Below, in pieces: positions 8,178 through 33,203 of a DNA stretch of 42,795 nt (position 1 is the first letter of the stretch; each line of letters begins with the position of its first letter). Position numbers and translations under genes: made by a program. Below the pieces are notes generated by a model that saw only the letters and a program-made list of their open reading frames with translations, was not told the DNA's origin and did no database searches. This DNA comes from Acidaminococcus intestini DSM 21505 (GTDB lineage Bacteria; Bacillota; Negativicutes; Acidaminococcales; Acidaminococcaceae). The stretch covers positions 1-42,795 of the forward strand of contig NZ_AULA01000022.1 of the NCBI RefSeq assembly GCF_000425045.1, in the 5' to 3' direction.

Positions 8178-8451
8178 ACAGATTTTCATTTTTGTATATC
8201 ATATTTTCCTTATTTTTCTATTAATTTGTCTATTTCAAAGAGACATAATAGGAATTCTTCTCAAAAATTATTCGTCTTTTCTAACCTTCTTTTTATATCC
8301 ATTTAGCCATGATTAACTATATGATAGTTTCATTTTATATGCTTTGCCAAATTCTTTTATCGATAATTGTAACCACTGTAAATTATGAACCCCCTTTTTT
8401 CTTTCTTTATTCCCTTTTCACGGGCCTTTTCATTACCGCTGAAAAAGGCTT
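8178..8451. other. AT-rich spacer
   Basis: Between the copy 2 terminator and the copy 1 promoter; very AT-rich, no gene or repeat seen. Confidence 0.5.
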
Positions 8452-8489
8452 AAAAAAACACTGCCCTGCAAAATGTTCGCAAGGCAGTA
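8452..8489 (-). terminator. Terminator of AbgT copy 2
   Basis: On the minus strand ACTGCCTTGC pairs with GCAGGGCAGT (one mismatch), followed by seven T. Confidence 0.75.
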
Positions 8490-8521
8490 CACACGATAAT
8501 CCATCTAGGACTGTTTTTCCC

Positions 8522-10069: not shown

Positions 10070-10097
10070 AATCAACTTCTTCCTTAGATAGTAAAAT

Positions 10098-10191
10098 ATC
10101 CGGCAAGGCACGAAGCCCCGCCGGATGTTCAAAAAGCGCAGCGCTTTTTCAAACTAGAGAGCGTACGGGTTACCTTTCCCTAAAAGGAAAG
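10098..10191 (-). terminator. Three small hairpins between AbgT copies 3 and 2
   Basis: Reading the minus strand from copy 3: CTTTCC with GGAAAG (about 10173-10191), then AAAAAGCGC with GCGCTTTTT (10131-10149), then ATCCGGC with GCCGGAT (10098-10126). The middle one ends in five T and is a weak terminator. Together they could partly uncouple copy 2 from copy 3. Confidence 0.5.
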
Positions 10192-10200
10192 TCGTTTTAG

Positions 10201-11745
10201 TCAGAGAATGCCCGGGGGCAGCTGCATGCCGACGCCCGGTCCAATGGGAAGGCCCAAGGTTTCCCAAACGATGAGGAAAACAATCCAGGCAATCTGAAGG
10301 ACGATGGCAATAGGAATCATGTTGGAAATGAGGGTCCCAATGGCAATGTCAGGCATGTATTTTTCCTGGGCCACAGAAAGGATCATCCAAATGTAGGGAG
10401 ACATCGGGGTAAAGCAGTTCCCCGGAGAGTCGCCCAAGCGATAGATGAGCTGGGTAAATCCAGGATGGTAGCCAAGGAGCATGAACATCGGAACGAAGAT
10501 CGGAGCGAGGATGGCCCACTTGGCAGAGCCGCTCGAAACAAAGATGTTGATGAGGGCCGTAATGAGGATAAAGGCGATGCACATGGGAAGGCCCGTAAAG
10601 CCGATTCCTCTGAGGAAGTCAGCACCGGAAATCGCCATGAGCGTGCCCAGATGGGTCCAGTTGAAAAGAGCTTGGAACTGGCCGCAGAAAAAGCAGAAAA
10701 CAACGTAGGCGCCCATGCCGCTCATTTGCTTGACCATGGCTTTGTTGACGTCCTTGACAGATTTAAAGCTGCCCGTCGTGATGCCATACGTGATGCCGGC
10801 AATACTGAAGAGGAAAAAGAGAATCGGGATGAGACCTTTGAGGAGCAACGATCCGACGAGGGTATGTCCGTCTTTGGAAAGAACGCCTGCAAAGAAACCG
10901 ATGGCGAGGATGGCAATATAGAGCACAACGGCAAAACCGGCACGATGAAGTCCTTTTACTTCAAGGGGGGTCACTTCCTGGATGGTCTCGTCTTCATCTT
11001 TGCTGTGATAGACGGGGAACCGAGGTTCCACGATCCTAGTTGAAACAAGGCCAATCACAAGGGAGCACAGGAAGGTAGAAGCAATCATGAAGTACCAGTT
11101 ACAGGTGACATCAACAACAAATTTCCCAGGTGTACCGAGAAACGCATCAATGGCTTGGTTCGTAAGGCCCTGCAGCAGGGAGTCCGTACCAGCAATCATG
11201 AGGTTTGCCGTAAAACCAGCCTGGGCACCGGCATAGCCGACAATCATCCCTACAACCGGGTTTTTCTTGACGCCGATGTAAACGAGGGCAGCAAGAGGCG
11301 GAATGACGACCATGGCCGTATCGGAGGCAATGTTGCCGACCGTTCCAAGAAAAGCAATGAGAAACGGTACGATATTAGGCGGTACATTCTTCATACTGCG
11401 GCGGAGCATGGCAACAAGCATGCCTGATTCTTCACAGAAGCCAATGGCCATAGTCATGGTGATGACAAGTCCCAAAGGTGCAAAACCGGTGAAGTTCTTG
11501 ACCATGCTGGTCAAAAGCCACTGGACACCTTCTTTGGTAAAGAGGTTCTGGGAATAGACGACCTTATGGGTCGCCGGATTTTCGAGGCCAAAACCAGAGA
11601 AGGTAAAGAACATCCCGACAAAAGCCACGATAAGAAACAGGATACAAAATAGGATGGCAGGCGGTGGCAATTTGTTGCAGACACGTTCAATCGTGTTGAG
11701 GAACCGGTCCACCCGGGACAGTTCCTTTTCATTTGTTGCAGCCAT
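10201..11745 (-). CDS. AbgT-family transporter, copy 3 (514 aa)
   Basis: First-transcribed of the three AbgT carriers. It shares VCNKLPPPAILFCILFLIVA, GFAPLGLVITMTMAIGFCEE, GTDSLLQGLTNQAI, SSGSAKWAILAPIFVPMFML and GDSPGNCFTPMSPY with its paralogues. By eye it is somewhat closer to copy 1 in the N-terminal third and in the last 40 residues (GLPIGPGVGMQLPPGIL). ATG follows a G-rich ribosome site. Its promoter region faces that of the NERD-like gene on the other strand. No peptidase gene of the AbgA/AbgB type stands beside the cluster. Confidence 0.9.
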   Translation of the reverse strand: MAATNEKELSRVDRFLNTIERVCNKLPPPAILFCILFLIVAFVGMFFTFSGFGLENPATHKVVYSQNLFTKEGVQWLLTSMVKNFTGFAPLGLVITMTMAIGFCEESGMLVAMLRRSMKNVPPNIVPFLIAFLGTVGNIASDTAMVVIPPLAALVYIGVKKNPVVGMIVGYAGAQAGFTANLMIAGTDSLLQGLTNQAIDAFLGTPGKFVVDVTCNWYFMIASTFLCSLVIGLVSTRIVEPRFPVYHSKDEDETIQEVTPLEVKGLHRAGFAVVLYIAILAIGFFAGVLSKDGHTLVGSLLLKGLIPILFFLFSIAGITYGITTGSFKSVKDVNKAMVKQMSGMGAYVVFCFFCGQFQALFNWTHLGTLMAISGADFLRGIGFTGLPMCIAFILITALINIFVSSGSAKWAILAPIFVPMFMLLGYHPGFTQLIYRLGDSPGNCFTPMSPYIWMILSVAQEKYMPDIAIGTLISNMIPIAIVLQIAWIVFLIVWETLGLPIGPGVGMQLPPGIL

Positions 11746-13021: not shown

Positions 13022-16000
13022 TTATTCATCAGCATTTTCGCTGTCCGTGCTCTCTTGAACTTCATCGGGACGATGAAGCTTGAGCTGGATATTGCGGTAT
13101 TTAGGCATGCCCGTACCTGCGGGGATCAGCTTACCAATGATGACGTTTTCCTTAAGACCAAGGAGCGGATCGACTTTGCCTTTGATGGCGGCGTCGGTCA
13201 GGTTTCTCGTCGTTTCCTGGAAGGAAGCAGCTGACAGGAAGGAATCTGTTGCCAGGGAAGCTTTGGTGATCCCGAGGAGGATCGGATGTCCTTGTGCCGG
13301 TTCCTTGCCTTCTGCCATGACTTCATCGTTTTCATCTTCAAATTGTGCGATGTCCACAACGGAGCCCGGCAGCATCTTTGTATCTCCAGCATCGTCGATG
13401 CGGTATTTGCGCATCATCTGACGGACCATGACTTCAACGTGTTTATCGTTGATTTCAACGCCCTGGGATTTATAGACACTGAGTACCTGCTGCACGAGGT
13501 AGTGACGCGTAGCGGCAGGCCCGCTGATACGCAGGATATCGTGCGGATTGAGGGACCCTTCGGTCAGGCGGTCGCCCACTTCCACATGATCGCCGTCGGC
13601 AATATGAAGTTTGGCCCCATATGGAATATGGTAGGAATCTTCCGTGCCATCTTCGCGGGTGATGATGACAAAACGGCCATCTTCCTTTTCCTGGACGCTG
13701 ACGGTTCCTGCCGATTCGCTGAGGATACCCGGATGTTTCGGTTTCCGTGCTTCGAAGAGCTCTTCGACACGAGGAAGACCCTGGGTAATATCGTCAGCAC
13801 CGGCAACGCCGCCCGTATGGAACGTACGCATCGTGAGCTGGGTGCCCGGTTCCCCGATGGCCTGGGCGGCAATGGTCCCGACAGCTTCGCCGATTTCGAC
13901 CTTGCGGGCCGTGGCGAGGTTGCGTCCATAGCACTTGCGGCAGACGCCAAAGTGGGATTTGCAGGTAAGAACGCTGCGGATCTTGACTTTTTCACGGAGG
14001 CTGGCGATGACATCAGCCATATCTTCCGTAATGTAGTCATTGATGTGATAAAGGACGTGACCGTCCTTGTCTTCGATTTCTTCGGCAAGGGTTCTGCCCA
14101 CGAGGCGGTCGCGGAGGGATTCCAGGACCGTGCTCTTGTTCTTGCCGGCCGTAATGGCTTCAACGTAGATACCGTCAACTTCGTTGTTGCGGATACTCAG
14201 TTCCTTAACCGTGCCATTATCAAGAATGGTTTCAATGAGCTCTGCCGTGAAATGATCTCCCTTATGGGCAAGGACGGTTCCTTCCCCATCAAGGATATCT
14301 TCCGCCACTTCCTTATCGAGGAAGTGATGGGTCATGTGTTCACGGAAAGCCGTCTTGACCTTATCTTCGCTGACATTGATGGCAAGGGTCTCGGCGTCTT
14401 CGCCATTTTCTTCATCAAGAGGATACAGACGGATTTCCAGGACCTTGGCAGCAAGGAGACGGTCAAAGACGTCTTCCGTAACCACCGTATCGGCTTCGGC
14501 AATGATGGAATCATCGTCAGCAAGGACGCTGGAAGCAAGGGTACGGCCCACGGCGTATTCCTTCAGCTTGCGCTGGCTGGAGCCGAGGACGTTCTTGCAG
14601 AAACGAGCCCGTTCGCGGACGAGATTCATGGTCGTTACGTCGCAGTCATCTTCACGTACAATGACATCTTGGGCAACATCAACAAGGCGGCGCGTCAGAT
14701 ACCCAGAGTCAGCCGTTCTAAGGGCCGTATCGGCAAGACCTTTACGGGCACCGTGCGTGGAAATAAAGTATTCCAATACGGTCAGCCCTTCACGGAAGTT
14801 TGATTTAATCGGACGGTCGATGATACGGCCCGACGGGTCAGCCATCAATCCACGCATACCAGCGAGCTGACGGATCTGCTGTACGTTACCGCGGGCACCG
14901 GAATTGGCCATCATGAAGAGCGGGTTGAACTGATCCATGGTGTTCTTCATCAGGGCATCAGCAACATCTTCCGTAGCTTTGTTCCAAATATCAATGACCT
15001 TGCGGTAGCGTTCGTCTTCACTCATCAACCCACGGCTGAAGAGGCGTTCGACCTTATCGACTTCTTTTTCAGCAGCAGCAAGGATTTCGCCCTTTTCCTT
15101 CGGAATTTCGATATCCGACGCGGCAATGGACAGACCGGACAGACAAGCGTTGTCATAACCGAGTTTCTTGACCGTATCAAGGACGCGGGCCGTGCCGAAG
15201 TTCCCGTAAAGCTTATGGGCCTTGGCGACAAGACGGCCCAGTTCCTTCTTATCAATGAGCTTGCCAAGAAGCCAGGTTCCATCTTCCTGCTTGGAATAAT
15301 AGCGCATTTCAAGCGGCAGTTCGCAGTTGTAGATGATATTGCCCATGCTCGTCGTGACAAGGCTCTCACCCACATCGGACGGTTCAGGATAGATTTCGGA
15401 GTTGGGGACACGAACCTTGATCTTGGCCTGGAGGGCGATGTCCTTATTGAAGTATGCCAGTCTTGCTTCGTCAAAACTGATGAAGCGACGGCCTTCTCCT
15501 TTGGCCCCTTCGCGGAAAATGGTGAGATAATACGCGCCCAATACCATATCCTGCGTCGGAACGGTGATTGGTTTCCCATCTTTTGGAGCCAGGATATTAT
15601 TGACACTCATCATGAGCACACGGGCTTCAGCCTGGGCTTCAGCAGACAGCGGCAGGTGAACAGCCATCTGGTCACCGTCGAAGTCGGCGTTGAAAGGCGT
15701 GCAGACGAGCGGATGAAGTTTAATGGCGCGGCCTTCGGACAGAATCGGCTCAAAAGCCTGGATGCCCAGACGGTGCAGCGTCGGGGCACGGTTCAGCATG
15801 ACAGGGTGTTCCTTGATGACTTCTTCCAGGACATCCCAAACGGCATCCGTCGCGCGTTCGACCATTCTCTTTGCGCTCTTGATGTTCGTTGCCGTACCGT
15901 TTTCGACAAGGCGTTTCATGATGAACGGTTTGAAGAGTTCAAGGGCCATTTCTTTCGGCAGGCCGCACTGATGCATCTTCATTTCAGGACCAACGACAAT

Positions 16001-17032
16001 AACGCTTCGACCGGAGTAGTCGACACGTTTACCCAAAAGGTTCTGACGGAAACGGCCCTGCTTCCCTTTGAGCATATCAGAAAGGCTCTTTAAGGGGCGC
16101 GTGCCAGGGCCCGTTACGGCGCGGCCGCGGCGGCCGTTATCGATAAGGGCATCGACAGCTTCCTGGAGCATCCGTTTTTCGTTCCGGACGATGATGTCCG
16201 GAGCCTGCAGTTCTTGAAGGCGTTTCAAACGATTGTTACGGTTGATGACACGGCGATAGAGGTCGTTCAGGTCGCTTGTAGCAAAACGGCCGCCATCGAG
16301 CTGAACCATCGGACGCAAATCCGGCGGAATGACCGGAATGACATCCATGATCATCCATTCTGGCTTGTTGCCGCTCTTGAGGAAGGCTTCACAGACATCG
16401 AGACGGCGCACGATGTTGCGTTTTTTCTGGAGGCTCGTCTCCGTCTTGAGTGCTGCCCGCAGTTCCTTCGTCAGTTCTTCCACATTGATTTCGTGGAGCA
16501 GTTCCTTGATGGCTTCGGCACCAATGCCGACGCGGAAAGTATCCCCGAATTCATCCAGTTTTTCCTGGTATTCGGCTTCTGTGAGGAGCTGCTTTTTTGT
16601 CAGGTTCGTATCGCCCGGATCAAGGACGATGTAGCTTGCAAAATAGAGGACCTTTTCAAGGGCGCGCTGACCAATGTCAAGGATGGCGCCCATGCGGCAG
16701 GGAATCCCCTTGAAATACCAGATGTGGGAGACAGGAGCAGCAAGCTCAATGGAGCCCATGCGGTCACGACGGACTTTTGCCCGCGTGACTTCGACGCCGC
16801 ACTTGTCGCAGACCACACCTTTATAGCGGATGCGTTTGTACTTACCGCAGTGGCATTCCCAGTCCTTGGTCGGGCCAAAGATGCGTTCGCAGAAAAGGCC
16901 GTCCCGTTCTGGTTTCAGCGTTCTATAGTTAATCGTTTCCGGCTTCGTGACTTCGCCGTGGGACCAGGAACGGATCTTTTCCGGGGAAGCCAGGCCGATT
17001 CTCATAGAATGAAATTTATTTACGTCCAACAA
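13022..17032 (-). CDS. rpoC: RNA polymerase beta' subunit
   Basis: Largest subunit of RNA polymerase, carrying the catalytic magnesium site [14 protein letters not shown] (near residue 450). The N-terminal zinc site has C-x-C and C-x-x-C (about residues 60-78); the second zinc site [11 protein letters not shown] lies near residue 1025. About 1336 residues, normal for the family. I chose TTG 17032 as start: it sits nine bases after AAGGAG and gives the usual N-terminus LDVNKF...[11 protein letters not shown]; a GTG two codons earlier is too close to the ribosome site. It lies 16 bp after rpoB and is followed directly by a terminator, so rpsL, rpsG and fusA are not downstream as in many bacteria. 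Confidence 0.97.
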
Positions 17033-17048
17033 GAGCACTCACTCCTTC

Positions 17049-20000: not shown

Positions 20001-20780
20001 GTCGGAGAAAAGGTTATAGATGAGCTGTTCAGCGTTTTCAAGGTTAGCAGGTTCACCCGGACGCAGCTTCCGATAGATTTCCAGAAGGGCATCATCTTCA
20101 TTTCTCGTTGTGTCCTTGGCAAGGGTAGCAACCAGGTAAGGATGCTCACCAAAGACGCTGATGATATCATCATTTGTCGGCAGACCCATGACACGCAGGA
20201 GGGCCGTAGCAGACAGTTTGCGCGTCCGGTCCACACGGGCATAGATGATGCTGTTAAGGTCGGTCTCATATTCAATCCAGGCCCCGCGGTTCGGGATGAC
20301 TGTGGTCCCGTAGAGGAACTTACCCATTGGATCCATATCCTTGGCATAATAGACGCCAGGGCTGCGGACAAGCTGACTGACAATGACACGTTCTGCCCCA
20401 TTGATGACGAAGGTCCCCGTATCGGTCATAAGGGGGAAATCGCCCATAAAGACAGTCGATTCCTTGATTTCGCCCGTATCTTTATAAAGCAGACGGACGT
20501 CTACGTTCAAAGGAGCCGCATAGGTTGCATCTTTTTCCTTGCAAGTTTCGATATCATACTTCGGATCGCCGATGGTAAAATTCTCGAAACTCAGTTCCAG
20601 GCTGTTTGTAGCATCCTTGATAGGCGATACGTCCTGGAACGCGTCATGAAGTCCTTCCCTGATGAACCACTCATAGGATTTTCTCTGCAAGTCAATCAGA
20701 TGCGGCATCTTCAGGACTTCTTTGATTCTGGCATAGCTGTACCTTTTACGGTTGCCATTATGAACCGGCTTGAACAACAT
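17049..20780 (-). CDS. rpoB: RNA polymerase beta subunit
   Basis: Second-largest RNA polymerase subunit, 1243 residues. The rifampicin region [20 protein letters not shown] lies near residues 448-467, and [14 protein letters not shown] near 897-910. ATG 20780 follows AAAGGAG; a 20-codon upstream extension overlaps the leader terminator and is not coding. After the conserved C-terminal part the protein carries an acidic tail of about 95 residues (from near 1148) rich in Asp, Glu, Asn and Ser. In many bacteria rplJ-rplL precede rpoB; here they do not, and rpoB has its own promoter and leader. Confidence 0.97.
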
Positions 20781-20988
20781 ATGGGTTCTCACTCCTTTAC
20801 ATCCTGCAGGTTTTTTAACACAAAAAAACAAGGCCCACAATCAAAATGAATCTTTGATTAGCCTTGTAAAAACCAAGTTCCCTCAGTCAGCATTTCGTGC
20901 TCCTCTCAACCAAACGATCGGAACGCGATGTCCAACCACTGAGCACTCGCGAAACCTTATAATCCTGCTAGTAAATAAAATTTCATGG
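20781..20988 (-). promoter_or_regulatory. Structured rpoB leader with intrinsic terminator
   Basis: The leader of about 208 nt starts from the promoter at 20995-21023. CTCAGT near its 5' part can pair with ACTGAG further on, enclosing an AGCA-CGAAA-TGCT hairpin. Then a full intrinsic terminator (20822-20866) follows: CAAGGCTAATCAAA pairs with TTTGATT and GCCTTG, and seven T come next. The rpoB ribosome site lies about 30 bases after it. This layout suggests premature termination control of rpoBC. No known leader family was recognised. Confidence 0.6.
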
Positions 20989-20994
20989 ACTGAT

Positions 20995-21023
20995 ATTGTA
21001 CCATGTATTTTAGGTTATTGCAA
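20995..21023 (-). promoter_or_regulatory. Promoter of rpoBC
   Basis: On the minus strand TTGCAA (21018-21023) and TACAAT (20995-21000) are spaced by 17 bp. Confidence 0.65.
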
Positions 21024-21060
21024 GGAGTTTTAAAGAAAAATATTTTTGTGAAATATGGAG

Positions 21061-21240
21061 GAAAGACCATGGTGCGCCGCCCCAAGCCTCCCTACTGGAG
21101 GGGTGGAACTTCATTCGCCCGGAAACATGTCCCTCCGCCCTTCCGCGGCTGCTCCAAAGCGGGCTTGGGACTCGGGCGAATCTTCCTCACTACCGCCTGC
21201 AAGGAGACGAAGCGCCGCTTCTCATCCATCACCAAAACGG
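21061..21240 (-). repeat. Dispersed repeat, module with GGACATGTTTCC
   Basis: Read on the minus strand it contains CGGTAGTGAGGAAGATTCGC, CTTTGGAGCAG, GGGACATGTTTCC and a GC-rich palindrome around CCTCC/GGAGG. The first part matches 25735-25800 (plus strand) and the second part matches 34330-34400 (minus strand). Identity is partial, so these are old copies. No intact gene. Confidence 0.6.
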
Positions 21241-21719
21241 GAAAATTATGTTGATAAATGCTTATGGAAATTTCCACACAACATGAGTGTTAATCAATTT
21301 TATCAGCGGCCCTGTCGTACACGAAAACAGTTCCTTTGCCTCCGCAGCCGCAATGGATTTATACGGGTGCGGCTGTAAGGGATAAAAGGACTCGCTTTCT
21401 GCTGTTTCACATCAGAAGACCGGCCTTTCCGGCAGAGGAAACTCCGACTGCTCCTATCGTTGCTGCCCTCTGAGTAAGCTTTCTGCACGAATTTTTCAGC
21501 ATAAGAGAAAACGAAAAATTCGGCGACTCACTTACCCGCCCTGCACGATGTCCCACTTCGCTTTTCTAAGGCAGCGATGCGCTTACCGCCTTGGCAAAGG
21601 CAGATCGATGCGTTGCAGCAAGTTCAAAGGGGAAAGAGGGGACGCGAGTCGTTCCAAGCGCCATTGTTATCTTTCTATTTCAAAGGACCCACCTCCTACA
21701 AAAGCCGAACAGAAGATAA
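21241..21719. other. Structured gene-free stretch
   Basis: No gene with a ribosome site. Strong hairpins are present: CAGCCGCA with TGCGGCTG (about 21343-21376) and CGAATTTTTC with GAAAAATTCG (21488-21522). Could be a non-coding RNA or repeat remains; no known RNA family recognised. Confidence 0.4.
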
Positions 21720-21761
21720 AAGCCCAAAACCGAACCTACGTCTACGTTCGGTTTTGGGCTT
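21720..21761. terminator. Strong hairpin, terminator-like
   Basis: AAGCCCAAAACCGAAC pairs perfectly with GTTCGGTTTTGGGCTT around a 10-base loop. On the minus strand TTTTA follows; on the plus strand a T-rich stretch follows a few bases later. Confidence 0.55.
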
Positions 21762-22100
21762 CTCTTACGTTTTTTGCCTTACAATCTTTTCCCTTCCGGT
21801 CTTTTCCTCCAATTGCTTTTTGCGAATTCGGTTCAGATGGATCCAGATGCGAGGAGCCCCCGCTTCCACCGACGACAGACCTGAGACGCCAGCAGTCCGC
21901 TAGCGCAGCGACGCGGGAGTTTCCTTGCGGCCAGAGGCCGGTACGTCTAGGAGGTTGGGCGCGCGGGCGACAAAGTAGATGGGCCCATATGGACTGAAGA
22001 TTGCAAAAAGCTTCCGCTTTGATAAGCTAGGCGCTGGAAGTGACGACACATGGGTAGGAAAGGAAACGCCCAGGCGTAAGCTATCCCCAAACGTGGGACT
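21762..22100. other. Gene-free stretch with a repeat fragment
   Basis: Positions 21821-21845 are the reverse complement of a sequence at 42393-42416 (TGGAYCCATCTGAACCGAAT). The remainder shows no gene or recognised element. Confidence 0.4.
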
Positions 22101-22208
22101 GTCCATCGTACGATAGGCCATAAGGCCATTGTTTCCACAAAATCTTTTTTAAGCAATGGCCTCACGTACTCCATCAAATCAGCCCGATTTTTGGGCTGAG
22201 TAAAAATA
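22101..22208 (-). repeat. Dispersed repeat, module with GATTTGATGGAGTACGTGAG
   Basis: On the minus strand it reads TCAGCCCAAAAATCGGGCTG, then GATTTGATGGAGTACGTGAG, then GCCATTGCTT and an arm pairing back as AGCAATGGC-like sequence. Similar units lie at 25583-25690 (plus), about 34480-34600 (minus) and 42300-42360 (plus). The unit overlaps the end of the truncated gene upstream. Confidence 0.65.
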
Positions 22209-22532
22209 TATGCCCGACGCCTCCTTACGAGCGGCAAGCGAGGAACATTTTCCCTTTTGGATAGCAACCGTATCCGTTCCCGTGCGGTTGCCGACAAGCA
22301 AGTCTCCTGTGTACGTATTTTCATAAACTTCGCCTGTCGCGGGATCTGTCCATTTCCAATGCCAGCCATTGATACCTTCGGCCGTGATGTCACCATCATC
22401 AGTCGCGCTGACATGATCCGGACCCGCAATGGTACCGTACGTATGGGTTTCCGCATGGGTGACTCCCGTCTGAAGGCTCAATAAAACAAAAAAAGCAAGT
22501 ATGCTCCGGCAAGAACAATACGTAGGTTTCAT
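22179..22532 (-). pseudogene. N-terminal remnant of a secreted protein
   Basis: The frame starts at ATG 22532 and encodes a signal peptide (hydrophobic core SILAFFVLLSLQTGVTHA) followed by about 70 residues rich in Gly, Thr and Asp: ETHTYGTIAGPDHVSATDDG, and TGDLLVGNRTGTDTVAIQKG. This resembles the beginning of large surface or autotransporter passenger proteins. The reading frame then enters dispersed-repeat sequence and stops there (FYSAQKSG). I read it as a gene truncated by the repeat. The exact family is not recognised. Confidence 0.5.
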
Positions 22533-22704
22533 CAACTCCGCATCCCCTTTCCCAGTAAATCAGTATATTTAATGCTAATTATTTTTATTTCTATATCTAT
22601 ATTTTGTATTATATCATAAATATCTAGTAAATCATCGAATCGCGTCATATTAGTGGAAAGTAAAATCAACTTATCGAAAATTCATGATTCATACTAGATT
22701 TATA

Positions 22705-22749: not shown

Positions 22750-23358
22750 ATGAAATTTGCTGCCATGGCGGGATCCTTTCTGCTTTCCTGCCTTTTCTTA
22801 CTGCCTCTTGCTCCAGCTCAGGCTAAGACGAAAACGGAAGGAATCATAATTCATCCAGCTTATGAAAAAACAGCCACACATTCCCTTTCAGATCGTCTCT
22901 TCTTAAAAGAGGGAATCCGCTTATACACCGAGGGTCATTATGAAAGCGCACTCAAGATTTTACAAATTGCCTTTGACCGAGGCGACATGAAGGCAGGACG
23001 ATATATCGGTCTTTGCTTTGAAAATGGATATGGTGTGGCTCCTGATGCCCAGTTAGCCGCCCATTGGTACCAAGCAGCCTCCCTTAGAGGAGATGTAACT
23101 GCTACTTATCTATTGGGTACGCTTTACGAAAAAGGCAAGGGCGTTCCTCAAGACATACAAAAAGCCATGGACCTTTACCTGCAGTCCGCATACCGCAGCG
23201 ACCATGTTTCAGCCCCCAGTCAGCTTGCCTTGGGACGCCTCTATGAAAAGGGGGAAGGCACGGCAAGGAATCTTTCAAAAGCCCGTTATTGGTACGCTCG
23301 TGCCAGTAAGTCCGGAAACAAGGAAGCCGCAGCTGCACTTCTTCATGGGGAACACTAG
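22750..23358 (+). CDS. Secreted Sel1-repeat (TPR-like) protein, 202 aa
   Basis: A signal peptide (hydrophobic core about residues 7-20, cleavage after AQA near 25) is followed by helical repeats of the Sel1 type: AGRYIGLCFENGYGVAPD, ATYLLGTLYEKGKGVPQD and LALGRLYEKGEGTARN, each followed by an AxxWYxxA-like helix. Such repeats bind proteins and often act as envelope adaptors. Partner unknown. ATG 22750 follows GAAGG. It is a single gene with its own promoter; the rplU operon converges on it from the other strand. Confidence 0.85.
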   Translation: MKFAAMAGSFLLSCLFLLPLAPAQAKTKTEGIIIHPAYEKTATHSLSDRLFLKEGIRLYTEGHYESALKILQIAFDRGDMKAGRYIGLCFENGYGVAPDAQLAAHWYQAASLRGDVTATYLLGTLYEKGKGVPQDIQKAMDLYLQSAYRSDHVSAPSQLALGRLYEKGEGTARNLSKARYWYARASKSGNKEAAAALLHGEH

Positions 23359-24666: not shown

Positions 24667-25575
24667 ATGATACTAAAGGGGGCGATGATCATCAGCACGA
24701 AGGCAACATATATCCTCTTGTCCCTCATCGGGCTTTTGTGGGGATTCCAGCCCATTACGCTCAAATGGCTGCTCCCTTATTGGACGCCAGCAACCATTAC
24801 GACCTTCCGGTTCCTCGTCGTCGGCATGGTCATCCTCTTTTACCAATACTTCCGTCTCGGTCGGGACATGGCAAAGCTTCTCCCCCGCAAGACAGATTGG
24901 CCGTGGATTGTTTTTATGGGAATCAATGGACAGATGCTCAATTCCGTGCTCCAGTTCCACGGTCTCCAGTTCACGACGGTGACAAACAGCACCCTGATTA
25001 CGGCGACGACACCTGCCATTACGTCGGTCTGCGCCTACCTGATCCTTCACGAAGCCTTTTCCAAGAAACAGTGGCTGGGCATCCTGCTCTCCTTTAGCGG
25101 CGTCCTTGCAGTCATTACCAAAGGGAATTTTGACATAATCCGCACCATGAGCTTCAATGTAGGCGACGTCTTCTGTATTGCATCCCAGCTTGCCTGGGCC
25201 TTTTACAGCCTGGCCTCACGAAAGCTGACAGGCCACATGGACGTCCTTACGGCCCTTGGCTGGTGCAGTCTCTGCGGGACAGCCGGAACCGCTATTTATG
25301 GGATTTTTTCAAACACCCTTGTCCTTTCTCCCTTGCCGCCTGTTCCCTTTCTTTCCTATCTTTATATCACCCTTTTCGGCGGGATTGCCGCCAATGTCTT
25401 TTGGAACATTGGCGTCAAGAATGTCGGTCCCAGCGTCAGTTCCGTCTTTTTGAATTTCACGCCCGTCATGGGAATGGTTGCCGGGTATCTCATTTTTGCA
25501 GATCCCATCGGACCGCTCCAGATTGTCGGAGCCAGTGTGATTTTTGTAGGGGTATACCTGACGACGCATGGTTGA
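24667..25575 (+). CDS. DMT-superfamily (EamA) transporter, 302 aa
   Basis: An inner-membrane protein with about ten membrane segments in two EamA halves: the first starts YILLSLIGLLWGFQPITLKW, the second around NVGDVFCIASQLAWAFYSLA. Such proteins export amino acids or metabolites; the substrate is unknown. The first ATG coincides with the predicted transcription start, and the second (24685) is only two bases after AAAGGGGG, so the start choice is open and a leaderless message is possible. A dispersed repeat begins directly after the stop. Confidence 0.88.
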   Translation: MILKGAMIISTKATYILLSLIGLLWGFQPITLKWLLPYWTPATITTFRFLVVGMVILFYQYFRLGRDMAKLLPRKTDWPWIVFMGINGQMLNSVLQFHGLQFTTVTNSTLITATTPAITSVCAYLILHEAFSKKQWLGILLSFSGVLAVITKGNFDIIRTMSFNVGDVFCIASQLAWAFYSLASRKLTGHMDVLTALGWCSLCGTAGTAIYGIFSNTLVLSPLPPVPFLSYLYITLFGGIAANVFWNIGVKNVGPSVSSVFLNFTPVMGMVAGYLIFADPIGPLQIVGASVIFVGVYLTTHG

Positions 25576-25990: not shown

Positions 25991-27436
25991 TTAGCCGAGA
26001 ATGCTCTTCTTGATCATCTGGTTGACCATGCCCGGGTTGGCTTTGCCGCGGGATTTTTTCATGATCTGTCCTACAAGGAAGCCAATGGCTTTATCCTTAC
26101 CCGCTTTGATATCCGCAACAGACTGCGGATTGGCAGCAAGGACTTCGTCGACCATGGCTTGGATAGCGCCAGCGTCGCTCACCTGTTCAAGGCCCAGTTC
26201 CTTAACAAGGGCAGCCGGAGCTTTGTCGGTCTTGAGCATTTCCGCAAAGACTTTCTTGGCAAGCTTGCTCGAAAGGACGCCTTTATTGATGAGGTTGACC
26301 ATTTCCCCAAGATGGGTCGGGGAAACGGGGAATTCGCCAATGGTCACGCTATTGGCATTAAGATAAGCCGATACGTCACCGAGCATCCAGTTGGCGACAC
26401 TCTTGGCGTCTTCCGTTGATTTAGCGGCTTCATCAAAGTAAGCGGCAAATTTCTTGTCCGATACAATGAGTTCAGCATTGTATTCATCGAGGCCTTTTTC
26501 CTTCATGAGGCGGTCTTTCTTCGCATCAGGGAGTTCAGGCAGTTCGCTCTTGGCCTTTTCGATCCACGCGTCATCAATGATGATGGGCGCAAGATCCGGT
26601 TCCGGGAAATAGCGATAGTCATGAGCCTCTTCCTTGGAACGCATGGAGAAGGTCATGCCCTGGGCATCATCCCACGTACGGGTTTCCTGGACGACGTGCC
26701 CGCCGTCTTCGAGTATCTCTTTCTGACGCTGGACTTCATACTCAATGGCCCGTTCCAAGGCTTTGAAGGAGTTCAGGTTCTTGATTTCTGCACGGGTGCC
26801 ATATTCCTTGCTGCCTACAGGCATGATGGAGATATTGGCATCGCAGCGCATGGATCCTTCTTCCATTTTTCCATCGCAGACTTCCGTGTACTGCAGGTAG
26901 GAACGGAGTTTTTCCATATAAGCACGGGCTTCTGCCGCACTTCTCATATCCGGTTCGGAAACGATTTCGATAAGGGGCACACCGGCACGGTTATAGTCAA
27001 CGGCGGAAGAGTCGCTCGTTGAAATGGTGGCACCGGAATGGACGAGCTTACCAGCATCTTCTTCCATATGAATTCTCGTAATGCCAATGCGCTTGGTTTC
27101 ACCATTTACGTTGACATCAACATGACCGCCCAAGGCGATAGGCTGATAGAACTGGGAAATCTGGTAGGCTTTGGCAAGATCTGGATAGTAATAGTTTTTC
27201 CGGTCAAACTTGCTGTAGTGCTGGATATCACAATTGACAGCCAGGGCAAACCGCAGGGCAAATTCAACCATTTGCTTGTTCATGACCGGCAGGGCGCCAG
27301 GCATACCAAGGCAGACAGGGCAGACATGGGTGTTCGGTTCGCTGCCAAAGGCAGTGGAGCAGGAGCAGAAAGCTTTGGTCTTCGTCTTTAGTTCGGCATG
27401 GACTTCAAGACCAATTACAGTAGTATATTCAGTCAT
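25991..27436 (-). CDS. gatB: Asp-tRNA(Asn)/Glu-tRNA(Gln) amidotransferase subunit B
   Basis: 481-residue tRNA-binding and kinase subunit of GatCAB, which converts Glu-tRNA(Gln) or Asp-tRNA(Asn) to the amide form. N-terminal VIGLEVHAELKTKTKAFC and CPVCLGMPGALPVMN (a zinc-type Cys pair) are diagnostic; the C-terminal YqeY-like tail ends with GKANPGMVNQMIKKSI. ATG overlaps the gatA stop by one base (TAATG), so translation is coupled. Last gene of gatC-gatA-gatB. Confidence 0.97.
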   Translation of the reverse strand: MTEYTTVIGLEVHAELKTKTKAFCSCSTAFGSEPNTHVCPVCLGMPGALPVMNKQMVEFALRFALAVNCDIQHYSKFDRKNYYYPDLAKAYQISQFYQPIALGGHVDVNVNGETKRIGITRIHMEEDAGKLVHSGATISTSDSSAVDYNRAGVPLIEIVSEPDMRSAAEARAYMEKLRSYLQYTEVCDGKMEEGSMRCDANISIMPVGSKEYGTRAEIKNLNSFKALERAIEYEVQRQKEILEDGGHVVQETRTWDDAQGMTFSMRSKEEAHDYRYFPEPDLAPIIIDDAWIEKAKSELPELPDAKKDRLMKEKGLDEYNAELIVSDKKFAAYFDEAAKSTEDAKSVANWMLGDVSAYLNANSVTIGEFPVSPTHLGEMVNLINKGVLSSKLAKKVFAEMLKTDKAPAALVKELGLEQVSDAGAIQAMVDEVLAANPQSVADIKAGKDKAIGFLVGQIMKKSRGKANPGMVNQMIKKSILG

Positions 27437-28902
27437 TATTTCTTACCTCCCAGGGGCGCCACGGCTTTGTGGAATTCCGTAGCCTGTTCAAAGGTGTAAG
27501 CGGCGCGCAGCAGGGTTTCCTCGCCAAGCGGTTTGCCGATGAGCTGGGCACCAACGGGCATGCCATCCACAAATCCGCAGGGGATGGACATACCGGGCAG
27601 GCCGGCCATGTTGACAGGAATGGTCGTCACATCAAGCATATAGACCGTCAGGGGATCCATCTTGGCATCGAGTGAGTAGGCCACGACCGGGCTCGTCGGG
27701 GTAAGCAGGAGGTCACAGGTCTCAAAGGCCTTCTGGTAGTCCTGACGGATGAGGGTACGGACCTGCATGGCTTTGTTGTAGTAAGCGTCGTAATAACCAG
27801 AGCTTAAGACGTAGGTCCCAAGCATGATGCGGCGGCGCACTTCCTCGCCAAAGCCTTCCGTACGGGTGGCGGCCATCATTTCCGGGGCCGATTTGGCAGA
27901 AAGGTCACGGAAGCCGTAACGAACACCGTCAAAACGGCCAAGATTGGCCGACGCTTCTGCCGGTGCGATGATGTAGTACGTAATGACGGCATATTCCGTA
28001 TGAGGCAGGGAAACTTCAACGACTTTTGCGCCCAGCTCCTCATATTTTTTCGCCGTCAATTTGATCTGTTCAGCGACTTTGGGATCGGTCCCCTTGCCAA
28101 AAAACTCCTTCGGGAGGCTGATGACCATGTCCTTTACGTCCTGTTTCAAGGCTTTCGTGAAGTCGGGCACAGGGACATTTGCACTAGTCGAATCATGGGC
28201 GTCTACGCCGCAGATTGTGTTGAGGACAATCGCCGCATCGGTCACATCCTTCGTGATGGGCCCAATCTGGTCAAGGGAAGAAGCAAAGGCAATGCAGCCA
28301 TAACGGGAGACACGGCCATAGGTCGGTTTGATTCCGACACAGCCATTAAAGGAAGCAGGCTGACGGATGGATCCGCCCGTATCACTGCCCAGGGACCAAA
28401 TAGCTTCGCCGGCTGCGATAGCAGCGGCACTGCCGCCGGAAGAACCGCCCGGTACGCGGGTAAGATCCCAAGGGTTCGACGTGGCCTTGAAATAACTTGT
28501 TTCCGTCGTGGAACCCATGGCAAATTCATCCATGTTGGTCTTACCGATAAAGACCGTATCATCCTTACGGAGATTTTCAATGACGTGGGCATCGTAGACG
28601 GGCTGGAAGTTTTCCAGGATCTTTGAAGCACACGTCAGGCGCATACCTTTGAGGCTGATATTGTCCTTGATGGCGCCGGGAATCCCCGTCAGCGGCTTTA
28701 TGGCCTCACCCGCGGCAATCTTCTGGTCGACTTCGCGAGCTTTCTTCAGGGCCCCTTCTTTATCCAAGGTAATGTATGCCTTGACACTGTCTTCGACTTT
28801 GTCAATGCGGTCAAAGACTTTTTCGGTCAGTTCCACGGAGCTGATTTCTTTTTTGGTCAGCTTCTCATGGAGATCGTGAACAGTTTCATTATATAACGTC
28901 AC
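27436..28902 (-). CDS. gatA: Asp-tRNA(Asn)/Glu-tRNA(Gln) amidotransferase subunit A
   Basis: 488-residue amidase subunit that releases ammonia from glutamine. The amidase catalytic set is visible: Lys79 in GAIKDN, Ser154 in PGGSSGGSAAA and Ser178 in GSDTGGSIRQP. The start is GTG 28902, seven bases after AGGAGG. Fourteen bases separate it from gatC. Confidence 0.97.
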   Translation of the reverse strand: MTLYNETVHDLHEKLTKKEISSVELTEKVFDRIDKVEDSVKAYITLDKEGALKKAREVDQKIAAGEAIKPLTGIPGAIKDNISLKGMRLTCASKILENFQPVYDAHVIENLRKDDTVFIGKTNMDEFAMGSTTETSYFKATSNPWDLTRVPGGSSGGSAAAIAAGEAIWSLGSDTGGSIRQPASFNGCVGIKPTYGRVSRYGCIAFASSLDQIGPITKDVTDAAIVLNTICGVDAHDSTSANVPVPDFTKALKQDVKDMVISLPKEFFGKGTDPKVAEQIKLTAKKYEELGAKVVEVSLPHTEYAVITYYIIAPAEASANLGRFDGVRYGFRDLSAKSAPEMMAATRTEGFGEEVRRRIMLGTYVLSSGYYDAYYNKAMQVRTLIRQDYQKAFETCDLLLTPTSPVVAYSLDAKMDPLTVYMLDVTTIPVNMAGLPGMSIPCGFVDGMPVGAQLIGKPLGEETLLRAAYTFEQATEFHKAVAPLGGKK

Positions 28903-28916
28903 AGTGCTTCCTCCTC

Positions 28917-29204
28917 TTATTCGATGACGCGGGGTACCTTAAAGCCGCCATCATGTTCTTCCGGTGCATTTTTCATGGCGTCCTCGTGGGAGAGCCCTTC
29001 TTGGGGCACATCTTCACGGAAGACATTGCTCGTCGGAAGGACATAAGGAGAAGGTTCAATTCCCGTCGTATCGACTTGTTTCAGGATTTCCGCATAATTA
29101 AGGATCTGGTTGAACTGGTCCTCGAATTTTTCCAGCTCATCTGCCGGCACATTGAGTCTCGACAGAGTTGCGATATGTTTGACATCTTTCGCTGTAATAC
29201 TCAT
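28917..29204 (-). CDS. gatC: Asp-tRNA(Asn)/Glu-tRNA(Gln) amidotransferase subunit C
   Basis: 95-residue scaffold subunit that wraps GatA and GatB. Pattern VKHIATLSRLNVPADEL, then QFNQILNYAEILKQVDT and a C-terminal GGFKVPRVIE is typical. First gene of the operon. Confidence 0.94.
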   Translation of the reverse strand: MSITAKDVKHIATLSRLNVPADELEKFEDQFNQILNYAEILKQVDTTGIEPSPYVLPTSNVFREDVPQEGLSHEDAMKNAPEEHDGGFKVPRVIE

Positions 29205-29240
29205 GGTCTCACCGCCTGTCTATACTTTTAACATCTAATG

Positions 29241-29249
29241 ATTATATCA
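29241..29249 (-). promoter_or_regulatory. Extended -10 promoter of gatCAB
   Basis: TGATATAAT on the minus strand, about 37 bases before the gatC start. Confidence 0.5.
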
Positions 29250-29364
29250 CATGAAAGGACGTGTGAACATCCCCCGCCCCGCCTTTATCCTCACTCAATC
29301 GGCAGAGAACTTCCCTCAGGCCCGATCAAAAACGCCTCGCGCATTTTCTTATACTGAAAGAAGA

Positions 29365-29414
29365 GGCTGTCTTCCAATCAATCATGGGCCTTTCTATTGA
29401 CAGCCGCTTTTTTT
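29365..29414 (+). promoter_or_regulatory. Terminator-like hairpin before the trans-sulfuration gene
   Basis: GGCTGTC pairs with GACAGCC around a 27-base loop, and GCTTTTTTT follows on the plus strand, 86 bases before ATG 29501. TATACT at 29350-29355 could be a -10 element upstream, which would make this a leader attenuator. Otherwise it ends transcription from further left. Confidence 0.45.
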
Positions 29415-29500
29415 CATCGTAAAGTAGTAGAAAATCATTGATGTGATTTCTTTTATGCTTTTTAATCCTATCAATTTTCTATGTTTTAGGAGGGGTTTCC

Positions 29501-30637
29501 ATGAAGTTTCAAACAACCTGTATCCATGGAGACGGGCCCAACGATGCAACGGGTGCCGTTTCACCGGCGATTTACTGTACGTCCACCTTTTCCCATCCTC
29601 ATGTAGGAGAGTCAACAGGCTTCAACTACACCCGGGAATCCAATCCCACCCATGCCCGTTTGGAAAAAGTCATGTCCGCCCTTGAAAGCGGCGTCGATTC
29701 CCTCGCCTTTTCGTCCGGTATGGCTGCCATTGATGCGGTGATGCGTCTTTTTGTATCCGGAGACCATATCCTTACAGGTTTTGATCTTTATGGCGGCTCC
29801 TTCCGTCTCTTCCGTTCCGTCTACGAACCGTACGGTCTAACCTTTTCCGCCGTCCATACAAGCGACCTTGAAGCCGTGGAAAGAGCCATTACACCTAAAA
29901 CAAAGGCCATCTATCTGGAAACACCGACAAATCCCACCATGGAAATCACCGACCTGCGCGCCCTGGCAGAACTTGCCCACAAAAAGGGTCTTCTGGTCAT
30001 CGTTGACAATACGTTCCTCACCCCATATTTCCAACGCCCTCTGGAACTTGGCTGCGATATTGTCCTGCACAGCGGGACGAAGTACCTGGCCGGTCACAAC
30101 GATATCCTCGCAGGCTTTGTAATCAGCCGGGAAAAATCCATCGCGGAAAAACTTCGTTCCATCTACAAAACGACAGGAGCCTGCCTGAGCGTTTTTGACG
30201 CCTGGCTCATGCTGCGCAGCCTCCGCACCCTCCCCCTGCGTATGCGCCAGCACGAAAAAAATGCAGAAACGCTGGCTGCTTTCCTAAAGACCCAGCCCTA
30301 TGTGCAAAAGGTCCTCTATCCAGGCCTTCCCGAACATCCGGGGTATGAGATCCAGAAAAAACAGGCCACCGGGTTTGGCGGCATGATTTCGTTTTATGTT
30401 GATACACCGGAGCGGGCCAAGAAAATCCTTGAAGGGATTTCCCTCATCCAGTTTGCTGAAAGTTTGGGCGGTGCCGAAAGCCTCATGACCTATCCCCGCA
30501 CCCAGACTCACGCGGACTTGACGCCGGAAGAAGCAAAAGAAAAGGGAATTACGGATACGCTTCTGCGCTTTTCCGTAGGTCTTGAAGATGTAGAAGACCT
30601 CAAGGAAGACCTTTTGTCCGTCTTCAAAAATCTCTAA
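29501..30637 (+). CDS. PLP-dependent trans-sulfuration enzyme (MetB/MetC/MegL family), 378 aa
   Basis: A Cys/Met-metabolism PLP enzyme. Landmarks: YTRESNPTHARLE (phosphate-binding part from the neighbouring subunit), FSSGMAAIDAV, ETPTNPTMEITDL, VDNTFLTPYFQRPLELG and the cofactor lysine Lys194 in HSGTKYLAGHND. It could be a cystathionine gamma-synthase, beta-lyase or methionine gamma-lyase; these cannot be told apart by eye. In an amino-acid fermenter a lyase releasing thiol or H2S is plausible. ATG follows AGGAGG. No linked met genes. Confidence 0.9.
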   Translation: MKFQTTCIHGDGPNDATGAVSPAIYCTSTFSHPHVGESTGFNYTRESNPTHARLEKVMSALESGVDSLAFSSGMAAIDAVMRLFVSGDHILTGFDLYGGSFRLFRSVYEPYGLTFSAVHTSDLEAVERAITPKTKAIYLETPTNPTMEITDLRALAELAHKKGLLVIVDNTFLTPYFQRPLELGCDIVLHSGTKYLAGHNDILAGFVISREKSIAEKLRSIYKTTGACLSVFDAWLMLRSLRTLPLRMRQHEKNAETLAAFLKTQPYVQKVLYPGLPEHPGYEIQKKQATGFGGMISFYVDTPERAKKILEGISLIQFAESLGGAESLMTYPRTQTHADLTPEEAKEKGITDTLLRFSVGLEDVEDLKEDLLSVFKNL

Positions 30638-30649
30638 AACAGTTTCTGG

Positions 30650-30685
30650 GCTGCTCCCCGCCATATGGGGCGGCAGCTCTTTTTT
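30650..30685 (+). terminator. Terminator of the trans-sulfuration gene
   Basis: GCTGCTCCCC pairs with GGGGCGGCAGC (one bulge), followed by CTCTTTTTT. Confidence 0.8.
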
Positions 30686-30778
30686 CATACCTTGCCTCTA
30701 TCCAAATAAGAGGAAATAGTGTAAAATATCCTAAGCCGTAAAACACTTAGAAACGTTAGACAAGGAAAGGAGTACGGC

Positions 30779-31069
30779 ATGGACGATTGCATCAGTGTAC
30801 GCTTTGAAGAAAATAATAACCGTTCCGCAGCTTACGATGGAGACCAAGAAGTAGGGTACTGTTCTTACACCCTTGATGGAGATGTCTGGGTCATTGAACA
30901 CACCGTCGTCGATCCCGCCTATGGAGGAAGAGGCCTGGCCCGCCGTCTCGTGGACGCTGTTGTCATGGGAGCCCGGGACAGCCGCGTCAAGATCCTGCCC
31001 ATGTGTTCCTACGCCGTGAGCCTTTTTAAGAAGGATCATAAATACGACGAAGTAAACGCCAATCTCTAA
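30779..31069 (+). CDS. Small GNAT-like N-acetyltransferase (YidJ/YjdJ type), 96 aa
   Basis: A minimal acetyl-CoA-binding fold: VIEHTVVDPAYGGRGLARRL contains the pyrophosphate loop (GGRGLA), followed by VKILPMCSYAVSLFKK, typical of the short Acetyltransf_CG family. Target unknown. ATG follows AAAGGAG. Single gene ended by a bidirectional terminator. Confidence 0.88.
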   Translation: MDDCISVRFEENNNRSAAYDGDQEVGYCSYTLDGDVWVIEHTVVDPAYGGRGLARRLVDAVVMGARDSRVKILPMCSYAVSLFKKDHKYDEVNANL

Positions 31070-31086
31070 CCATGACGTCAGCATGC

Positions 31087-31130
31087 AAAAAGCCGGAAGA
31101 ACCTATTAACATCGGATCTTCCGGCTTTTT
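31087..31130. terminator. Bidirectional terminator
   Basis: AAAAAGCCGGAAGA pairs with TCTTCCGGCTTTTT. It serves both the GNAT-like gene (plus) and glyS (minus). Confidence 0.88.
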
Positions 31131-31142
31131 AGTATGACGTTT

Positions 31143-33203
31143 TTATTTCATGACAAGAAGAGAGACATCACCCACACAGCCAATGAGACTGCGGATCTTT
31201 GTCAAAAGGGCAAGGCGGTTTTGCTTTACGGCTTCATCCTTATCCATGACCATGACGTCATCAAAGAAATGGTTGATGGGTGCAGAAAGGCTGTCGCAAG
31301 CGGTAAGGACGCCGGCAAAATCACGGGAAAGAAGCATTCCATGTACGTTTTCAGCAGCCTTTTCCACAGCTTCAAAGAGGGCTTTTTCAGCGTCTTCTCT
31401 CAAAAGGGCCTCGGAAACAGGTGCGTCAACGCGACTTTTCTTGGTAATATTTTCCACGCGGGTAAAGGCCTGAAGCGTTTCTGGCGCCTTATCCGTACCG
31501 AGATAGGCCGTCAGGGCATCAGCGGCAGCAAAAGCGTCGCACAGGTCATCCCGGCCTTCAGCACCAAGGACGGCATCGACGATATCGTACCGAACGCCGC
31601 GGTCAAGCATCATGTTCTTGGAACGCTGGGCGAAGAATTCAACAATATCAGCCACAAGTTTGTCTTCACTTTGATTCGTTTTGGGCAGGCGGCTCAAGGT
31701 TTCCTTGATGGCGCTTGTAAGGGCAAAGTGGATGTTTCCATCGGTGACGATATTGAGGATACCCAGGGCCTGGCGGCGCAGGGCATAGGGATCCTGGGAA
31801 CCGGTTGGAGCTTCCCCGCGGCTGAAGGTTGCTGTGATATTATCCAGTTTATCGGCAATGGCAAGGAGACGGCCTTCATTCGTCTGAGGCAGTTCATCGC
31901 CGGCAAAGCGCGGCATGTACTGCTCTCCAATAGCCGTCGAGACCGTATCGCCTTCGCCGTCAAGAAGGGCATATTCACGGCCCATGGTGCCCTGCAGTTC
32001 CGTAAATTCCGTAACCATGCCGGTCACAAGATCGGCCTTGCTGAGGCGGGCTGCGCGAACAAGAGCCTTTTCATCAGCGGCAACGCCCGATTCCTTGAGG
32101 AGGCAGCTCGTAAGGGCTTCGAGGCGTTCCGTCTTTTCATACATATTCCCCATGCCGCGCTGGAAGGCTACATCATGCAGGGCCTCCCGATGTGCTTCAA
32201 GGCTCTTTTTCCGGTCGTTTTCAAAGAAGAAGACCGCGTCGTCAAGACGGGCACGAAGGACGCGTTCGTTGCCGTGGGTCACGATGTCAAGATGTTCACT
32301 GTTGCCGTTGCGGACCGTAATGAAATAAGGCAAAAGCTTGCCGCTGTCATCAAGGACAGGGAAGTAGCGCTGATGGTCGCGCATGGGAGTAATGACAGCT
32401 TCTTTCGGGAGCTTCAGGTACTTATCATCAATGGAACCGCAAAGGGCCGTCGGATATTCGACAAGATAAGTGACTTCATCGAGCAGGTCTTCAGAAATGG
32501 CCGTATGGCCGCCGGCTTTTTTGCCCAACGCTTCAATCTGTTCCCGGATGAGGGCACGGCGTTTTTCCACGTCGACAATGATGAAGTTTTCTTCGAGGGT
32601 TTTTACATAAGCCTCGGCCGAAGGAATCGTAATGGTCTGACTGCCCAGGAAGCGATGGCCGCGGGTCACATTGCCGCTTTTGACATCGTTTGCTTCAACA
32701 GGAATGACTTCACTGTCAAGAAGGGCCACCATCCAGTGGAAAGGACGGACAAACCCGAAGTCATAGTCGGCCCAGCGCATGGTCTTTGGGAAGGACAGGC
32801 TGTGGAGAATATCATCCAACAAGGCAGGCAGCAGGACCTTGGTTTCACCGCCCTTTGTGTGTTTGATGGCATAAACGTAACCATCCCGTTTTTCAAGGGC
32901 AGAGACTTCCACACCCTGACCGCGGGCAAAGCCCTGGACGGCTTTCGTCGGGTTGCCGTCTGCGTCAAAGGCAATCTTGAGGGATGGACCTTTGCTCTCT
33001 GCCGTCATATCTTCCTGACGGTCAGCAATGCCTTCAGCCACAAAGGCCATGCGGCGCGGCGTTCCGTAGACGCTGACTTTTTCAAAAGGAATACGGGCTT
33101 CCTTGAGTTTTGTTTCTGCCAGTTCCTTATAGTTTTTCAAGATACCCGGCATGTATTGGGCCGGCATTTCTTCCGTTCCGATTTCATATAATAACGTAGC
33201 CAT
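31143..33203 (-). CDS. glyS: Glycyl-tRNA synthetase beta subunit
   Basis: 686 residues. The beta subunit of the alpha2-beta2 bacterial GlyRS binds tRNA-Gly. Starts LLYEIGTEEMPAQYMPGIL; FGFVRPFHWMVAL and the HD-like and anticodon-binding parts follow (GRLLAIADKLDNITATF). The ATG overlaps the glyQ stop by one base (TAATG). Confidence 0.97.
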   Translation of the reverse strand: MATLLYEIGTEEMPAQYMPGILKNYKELAETKLKEARIPFEKVSVYGTPRRMAFVAEGIADRQEDMTAESKGPSLKIAFDADGNPTKAVQGFARGQGVEVSALEKRDGYVYAIKHTKGGETKVLLPALLDDILHSLSFPKTMRWADYDFGFVRPFHWMVALLDSEVIPVEANDVKSGNVTRGHRFLGSQTITIPSAEAYVKTLEENFIIVDVEKRRALIREQIEALGKKAGGHTAISEDLLDEVTYLVEYPTALCGSIDDKYLKLPKEAVITPMRDHQRYFPVLDDSGKLLPYFITVRNGNSEHLDIVTHGNERVLRARLDDAVFFFENDRKKSLEAHREALHDVAFQRGMGNMYEKTERLEALTSCLLKESGVAADEKALVRAARLSKADLVTGMVTEFTELQGTMGREYALLDGEGDTVSTAIGEQYMPRFAGDELPQTNEGRLLAIADKLDNITATFSRGEAPTGSQDPYALRRQALGILNIVTDGNIHFALTSAIKETLSRLPKTNQSEDKLVADIVEFFAQRSKNMMLDRGVRYDIVDAVLGAEGRDDLCDAFAAADALTAYLGTDKAPETLQAFTRVENITKKSRVDAPVSEALLREDAEKALFEAVEKAAENVHGMLLSRDFAGVLTACDSLSAPINHFFDDVMVMDKDEAVKQNRLALLTKIRSLIGCVGDVSLLVMK

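Follow-up and report, generated by a model that had tools for sequence, protein, structure and literature searches.

What sets the supply of RNA polymerase in a bacterium whose rpoB gene stands apart from the ribosomal protein genes rplJ and rplL? To our knowledge, control of RNA polymerase amount outside Escherichia coli has been little studied. The question is raised by a stretch of 42,795 nucleotides from Acidaminococcus intestini DSM 21505 (the window; contig C21 of a 2.28 Mb genome). A first-pass annotation had placed rpoB away from rplJL, with repeats upstream and with a promoter, a folded leader and a full intrinsic terminator of its own, and had proposed an attenuation switch that might sense polymerase or NusG- or L10-like factors. 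Polymerase supply is probably set here by the frequency with which transcription passes the leader terminator.

Genomic context of rpoB

The features of the locus are collected in Table 1; rpoB and rpoC presumably form one transcription unit. Relatives of rpoB were found in 47 of 59 genomes of the family. The nearest named rpoB sequences among the matches listed, which may omit records very close to the window, were from Phascolarctobacterium (80%) and another member of the Acidaminococcaceae (76%; identity over approximately 150 residues).

Table 1. Features of the rpoB locus and its leader, in positions of the window.
Feature	Position	Strand	Remarks
rpoC	13022-17038	-	beta-prime subunit; Pfam RNA_pol_Rpb1 domains; directly 3' of rpoB
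rpoB	20780-17049	-	RNA polymerase beta subunit; controlled gene; translation without internal stop
rpoB Shine-Dalgarno	20792-20798	-	AAAGGAG
P1, 3' strand	20806-20810	-	CCTGC, after the terminator; invariant in the nine genus leaders
Intrinsic terminator (attenuator)	20822-20867	-	helix 5 of the family structure; hairpin 20867-20828 and U-tract
Leader ORF	20858-20893	-	MLTEGTWFLQG; stop TAA 20860-20858, directly after the first terminator arm
Leader ORF Shine-Dalgarno	20900-20904	-	AGGAG, 6 nt before ATG
P3 hairpin	20924-20951	-	CGCGA...TCGCG; loop AGTGGTT 20940-20934; helix 2 of the family, which covaries
P1, 5' strand	20964-20968	-	GCAGG; in 9/9 genus leaders at -187 to -211
-10 hexamer	20995-21000	-	TACAAT with upstream TG; extended -10 TGGTACAAT
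-35 element	21018-21023	-	TTGCAA (weak)
Sel1-repeat protein gene	22750-23358	+	between gat genes and rpoB
EamA transporter gene	24667-25575	+	between gat genes and rpoB
gatC, gatA, gatB, Gly-tRNA synthetase beta gene	25991-33203	-	farther upstream of rpoB

The annotated repeats upstream of rpoB correspond to a GC-rich dispersed repeat at 21050-21720, which lies just ahead of the rpoB promoter and is matched 32 times in the genome, a count that includes the copy itself (69-100% identity, mostly partial). Since this repeat and genes on the plus strand lie between the gat genes and rpoB, a promoter of its own is very likely needed for rpoB. Minus-strand open reading frames at 21947-22535 gave no Pfam match. 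A near-perfect inverted repeat (19-nt arms, 4-nt gap) was also seen at 21720-21761 and is perhaps a two-way terminator, and three consecutive AbgT-family transporter genes lie downstream of rpoBC (6365-11745).

The reported distance between rpoB and rplJL was confirmed. Both rplJ and rplL sit on another contig (C50), with a hairpin and T-run 3' of rplL. Among the nine Acidaminococcus genomes, rplL and rpoB were both found in eight and were adjacent in none of these. They share a contig in four congeners, at gaps of approximately 61, 74, 82, and 118 kb (G008, G002, G007, and G003, respectively), and are on different contigs in four of the eight. In the rest of the family rplL usually lies approximately 290-450 bp upstream of rpoB, with exceptions at 4.9 kb (G018 and G074) and 26 kb (G024); it is on another contig in G056, G051, G016, G055, G014, G041, and G022, all draft contigs, of which that of G055 carries rpoB near its end and is not decisive.

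Leaders with rplL directly upstream (e.g., L053 and L062) show by eye a hairpin and T-run after rplL, followed by a TTGACA-type promoter, the leader and the terminator. Because relatives in which rplL is still adjacent carry the same elements, the arrangement of promoter, leader and terminator probably predates the separation of rplL. The view that rpoB acquired its own control on leaving rplJL thus survives in part: the separation is real in the genus, but the elements themselves are shared with relatives that retain the adjacent rplL.

Promoter and terminator of the leader

The weak -35 element and the extended -10 element are spaced by 17 nt, and transcription would start near 20988. Taken on its own, the promoter of the window was at chance level (2 sites found vs. 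a shuffle mean of 3.3). By eye, TGnTAnnAT occurs at the same position in eight of the nine genus leaders, including that of the window, with L048 being without the TG. Scores of at least 11 of 13 were reached by 33 of the 37 other family leaders vs. 0.8% of shuffles (38 non-genus leaders were given, one of them too short), and by 67 of the 81 other class leaders vs. 1.4% of shuffles, these 81 rows containing at least three records twice (L074/L188, L078/L199, and L079/L229). Among the Acidaminococcus leaders, with their weak -35 element, three of nine scored at least 11 and five at least 10. The position kept within the genus and the promoters exceeding shuffles outside it uphold the claim that rpoB has its own promoter.

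The full intrinsic terminator of the annotation was also recovered, as a 40-nt hairpin (-14.6 kcal/mol) followed by six T to 20822; a simple terminator scan with a loop limit of 8 missed it (0 found). A loose test, requiring a hairpin of ΔG ≤ -8 and a U-tract within the last 190 nt, was passed by 47/47 family leaders vs. 28/94 shuffles, although in at least two family rows (L155 and L166) it picked a hairpin other than the leader terminator. The same test was passed by 78 of 81 other class leaders vs. 40/162 shuffles, and by 34 of 66 named other Bacillota vs. 28/132 shuffles. A strict CAAGG..CCTTG-type pattern was present in all nine genus leaders, 30 of 38 other family leaders and 68 of 81 other class leaders. 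The rpoB leader of L155 (G069:C66) was seen to be without its terminator half, through either a deletion or an assembly fault.

Judged by these sequence signals the element would be an attenuator: promoter, leader and intrinsic terminator stand before rpoB, and a promoter search of the interval between terminator and rpoB in the window found none. Termination in the leader is likely to set rpoBC expression, whether regulated or not.

A covarying leader RNA in relatives

The leader extends over approximately 210 nt between promoter and rpoB, and its DNA was matched in all eight congeners searched besides the window genome. The energy of the whole-leader fold in the window is unremarkable (z -1.18). 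From a mixed MAFFT alignment of 22 sequences RNAalifold recovered only six pairs, none of them outside the terminator, as P3 had been misplaced between subgroups by MAFFT. Better results came from aligning the subgroups separately and from a covariance model. This model (R1), comprising P1, P3, P4 and the terminator, was built from ten family leaders (alignment A5). Over 61 sources it matched 39 of the 47 family leaders, the ten A5 sequences by construction, and the order relative L175 at the leader at E ≤0.01, and 42 of 47 family leaders at E ≤1. L164 and L165 matched over only 20 positions around P3 (E 0.37), and no match was obtained for L047, L049, and L155.

Covariation was assessed in 33 of 48 leaders (47 from the family and L175), 31 of them distinct; the nine genus leaders, L050-L052, the truncated L155, L164, and L165 were left out. 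The 35 pairs of five helices were paired in 91.5% of cases; shuffles reached 79.3% and slid versions 32-45%. Changes on both sides were seen at 27 of the 35 pairs (13.6 in shuffles) and in 132 cells (42 in shuffles). None of 500 shuffles reached the observed pairing or both-sided-change values, in an alignment that was fitted to, and hence biased towards, all helices but the pseudoknot, and against shuffles that ignore relatedness.

Two long-range helices, 1 and 4, span the terminator, and both covary. One is a pseudoknot between the loop of the P4 hairpin (GATGA..TCATC) and a segment approximately 20 nt beyond the U-tract. Four of its seven pairs change on both sides, and it stood outside the aligning model; re-dealt partners matched as well as the own partners in only 4 of 20000 permutations, based on 16 distinct pairs with relatedness ignored. 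In L175 the two segments differ from those of the other leaders yet are fully complementary (GGCTGA and TCAGCC), and the pseudoknot pairing was also drawn by RNAalifold in two subgroups. Against the pseudoknot, only 4, 5, and 2 of the seven positions are paired in L159, L160, and L166, respectively.

These helices bear on whether the terminator merely ends a separate small RNA gene that happens to precede rpoB. A promoter, a structured RNA and a terminator do have the look of such a gene, but helices 1 and 4 connect sequence on either side of the terminator, the search of the window gave no further promoter ahead of rpoB, and 26 of the 27 genome-wide R1 matches precede rpoB; a separate small RNA is accordingly very improbable.

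Those 27 matches were obtained at E ≤0.01 in 26 of 120 whole genomes of the class, 94 being without a match. All but one lay no more than 160 nt upstream of rpoB (that of G022 overlapping the rpoB start), and the single match away from rpoB was at G018:C13:45300. The matches cover ten families, with 13 matching genomes outside the family, in nine other families. Of Acidaminococcus, only G004 was matched in this run, and the window genome was not. The folded leader of the annotation is thereby borne out, in that related structured leaders covary and precede rpoB in other families of the class. An rpoB leader that covaries, carries a terminator and occurs in ten families of a single class gives a concrete handle that is easy to assay. 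In another class family (f7; L178-L187), a different conserved core, consisting of variants of TACATGGAGGAAGCGCTTCCGG, was seen by eye before a GCAAGG..CCTTGC terminator.

Fixed termination or regulation

The terminator-spanning helices can form only in read-through RNA. This fits a fixed partial terminator that reduces rpoBC by a constant degree and senses nothing, the conserved fold serving mRNA stability or processing, which is the variant of our preferred explanation without regulation. A fixed terminator also fits the antiterminator search, in which 61 leaders were inspected by eye (L202 gave nothing, and L066, L067, L068, L181, and L220 are cut after the terminator): among the 55 informative leaders, no helix common to the sequences competes with the terminator arm. 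Against fixed termination, the P3 loop AGTGGTT is kept in 31 of the 33 rows of alignment A7 (AGTGGGT in L159 and L160) on a stem whose base pairs vary without restraint, and in the non-genus family leaders with GCAGG this motif lies 186-198 nt from the rpoB start, except in the truncated L155. Loop and distance together suggest recognition, and we regard a fixed terminator as a substantial possibility short of an even chance.

The same nearly fixed loop on a covarying stem would be expected of a leader in which a protein, such as polymerase, a Nus factor or a ribosomal protein, binds P3 and alters read-through. E. coli rpoBC is stated to be autogenously controlled in the available part of one source (PMC10931766), which also speaks for a bound factor; against it, the L10 leader model was without a match here. 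On this evidence, a factor-bound leader is somewhat unlikely.

A riboswitch-type attenuator found no support: no conserved helix excluding the terminator was seen, and by eye the predicted partners of its arm vary from one sequence to another in the 55 leaders. With no antiterminator in common, a classical riboswitch is disfavoured, and the readings left are a bound factor, the ribosome, or an absence of regulation. What the annotation called an attenuation switch holds as regards the signals of promoter, leader and terminator; the shared antiterminator of a switch was not seen, and regulation is plausible.

Relation to known systems

The Lacto-rpoB RNA lies upstream of rpoB and is the nearest named kind to this leader. 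It is listed as a cis RNA associated with rpoB in Lactobacillales (Rfam RF01709; PMC2864571) and has been predicted within a 5' UTR that is expressed in Enterococcus faecium (PMC7724050). Its model of 58 positions matched none of 31 genomes of the present lineage, with a Lactococcus lactis control positive, and it was absent from the Rfam matches of the window leader at E ≤10.

Like this leader, the rplL-rpoB attenuator of E. coli places a terminator ahead of rpoBC; it was reportedly described by Barry, Squires and Squires in 1980 as a partial terminator between the ribosomal protein genes and rpoBC. We know of no long covarying leader with a terminator-spanning pseudoknot there. A leader from this gene neighbourhood is likewise attenuated in Bacillus subtilis, where transcription attenuation of rplJL is controlled by L10(L12)4 (PMC10931766; Rfam RF00557). 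The rplJL leader works through anti-antiterminator and antiterminator folds; the rpoB leader showed no counterpart of these. As a candidate for the rpoB leader itself, the L10 leader (RF00557) was rejected: it had no match there, and its two hits, in L053 and L062, lay more than 1.3 kb upstream of rpoB, where they presumably precede rplJ. The suggested sensing of polymerase, NusG or L10 by the leader is unsupported.

At the gathering score, Rfam 15 identified only tRNAs in the window and matched no family at the leader in seven loci with relatives' leaders. At E ≤10, the single match for positions 20770-21010 was plastid psbA (E 2.1), regarded as a chance hit. Searches of the open-access literature, with subscription papers outside their scope, returned no description of this leader RNA: in the parts available, PMC13236596 concerns ilvB1 and whiB7 and not an rpoB leader, the main text of PMC2965389 has no word beginning with rpo, and PMC8632094 and PMC11109978 have zero occurrences of rpoB. 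An attenuated rpoB leader is a kind already known, while this RNA matches no Rfam 15 family in the searches made.

The diverged leader of Acidaminococcus and its ORF

The leaders of the genus have diverged, and R1 was correctly placed in only seven of nine at E ≤1 (E 0.23 in the window). All nine keep the GCAGG and CCTGC strands, an ACAAGG..CCTTGT terminator and a 31-nt invariant block containing P3; over 59 nt, the P3 region has an 80% match in another genus (E 4e-7). Pairing of GCAGG with CCTGC across the terminator is possible, and helix 1, the equivalent of this pairing in the family, covaries there. P4 and the pseudoknot were not recognisable in the nine leaders. RNAalifold preferred another fold (CUCAGU with ACUGAG and GUUCC with GGRGC), which nine leaders so conserved cannot tell from P3. 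The P3 tip (20930-20943, CTCAGTGGTTGGAC) resembles the D-arm of three tRNA-Gly(GCC) genes with one pattern mismatch; this likeness was discarded, as a backwards control gave the same count (4 vs. 4).

In place of the P4 and pseudoknot region, the genus has a short ORF consisting of an SD-like AGAGGRG, an ATG and 11 codons (12 in L047, through a 3-nt insertion). Its start and stop columns are the same in 9/9 leaders, with TAA and TGA exchanging at the stop, and among the conserved starts of the genus alignment it alone has a same-column stop in 9/9. The Shine-Dalgarno test was passed in seven of nine. By eye, the middle codons vary without third-position bias, and a specific amino-acid signal is therefore unlikely; to judge from the sequence, the act of translating the ORF could itself be the signal. 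Leader-peptide attenuators of the trp/pyrBI type likewise have a short SD-led ORF beside an intrinsic terminator. The genus ORF differs from them in having no run of codons for one amino acid, a variable peptide middle and a stop inside the terminator stem.

The sequence shows the promoter and terminator signals, the conservation and covariation of the leader, its place before rpoB in other families and the kept ORF of the genus; actual termination, its regulation and a signal from the ribosome are inferred. The transcript started at the rpoB promoter would fold first into P3 with its nearly fixed loop. Approximately 55 nt past P3, RNA polymerase would reach the terminator, and only read-through would yield rpoBC mRNA, which could then close a compact fold (P1, and the pseudoknot in non-genus relatives) upstream of the rpoB ribosome-binding site. 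In Acidaminococcus, a ribosome on the ORF would halt past the first terminator arm and so block the hairpin, and active translation would lead to more polymerase synthesis. Such a ribosome-gating step in rpoBC attenuation is unlikely, on our estimate. The broader proposal is slightly less likely still: that polymerase amount in the genus is set by ribosome activity via the leader peptide, with an increase only in cells that translate well, and that the leader goes back to an ancient rpoB control RNA shared across the class, which would have a binding partner of its own and no kinship with listed RNA families. In Acidaminococcus, a direct coupling of polymerase synthesis to translation can be put to the test in this leader.

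SD-led ORFs with their end at the terminator are not general in other genera: they were seen in 3 of 30 family leaders and 19 of 68 class leaders, counts that stand without a shuffled control; the carriers include the Pectinatus-like L188-L191 and L075. In two Peptococcaceae leaders (L082 and L084), SD-led ORFs ending in EIAP were seen by eye shortly before a GCGAGG..CCTTGC hairpin.
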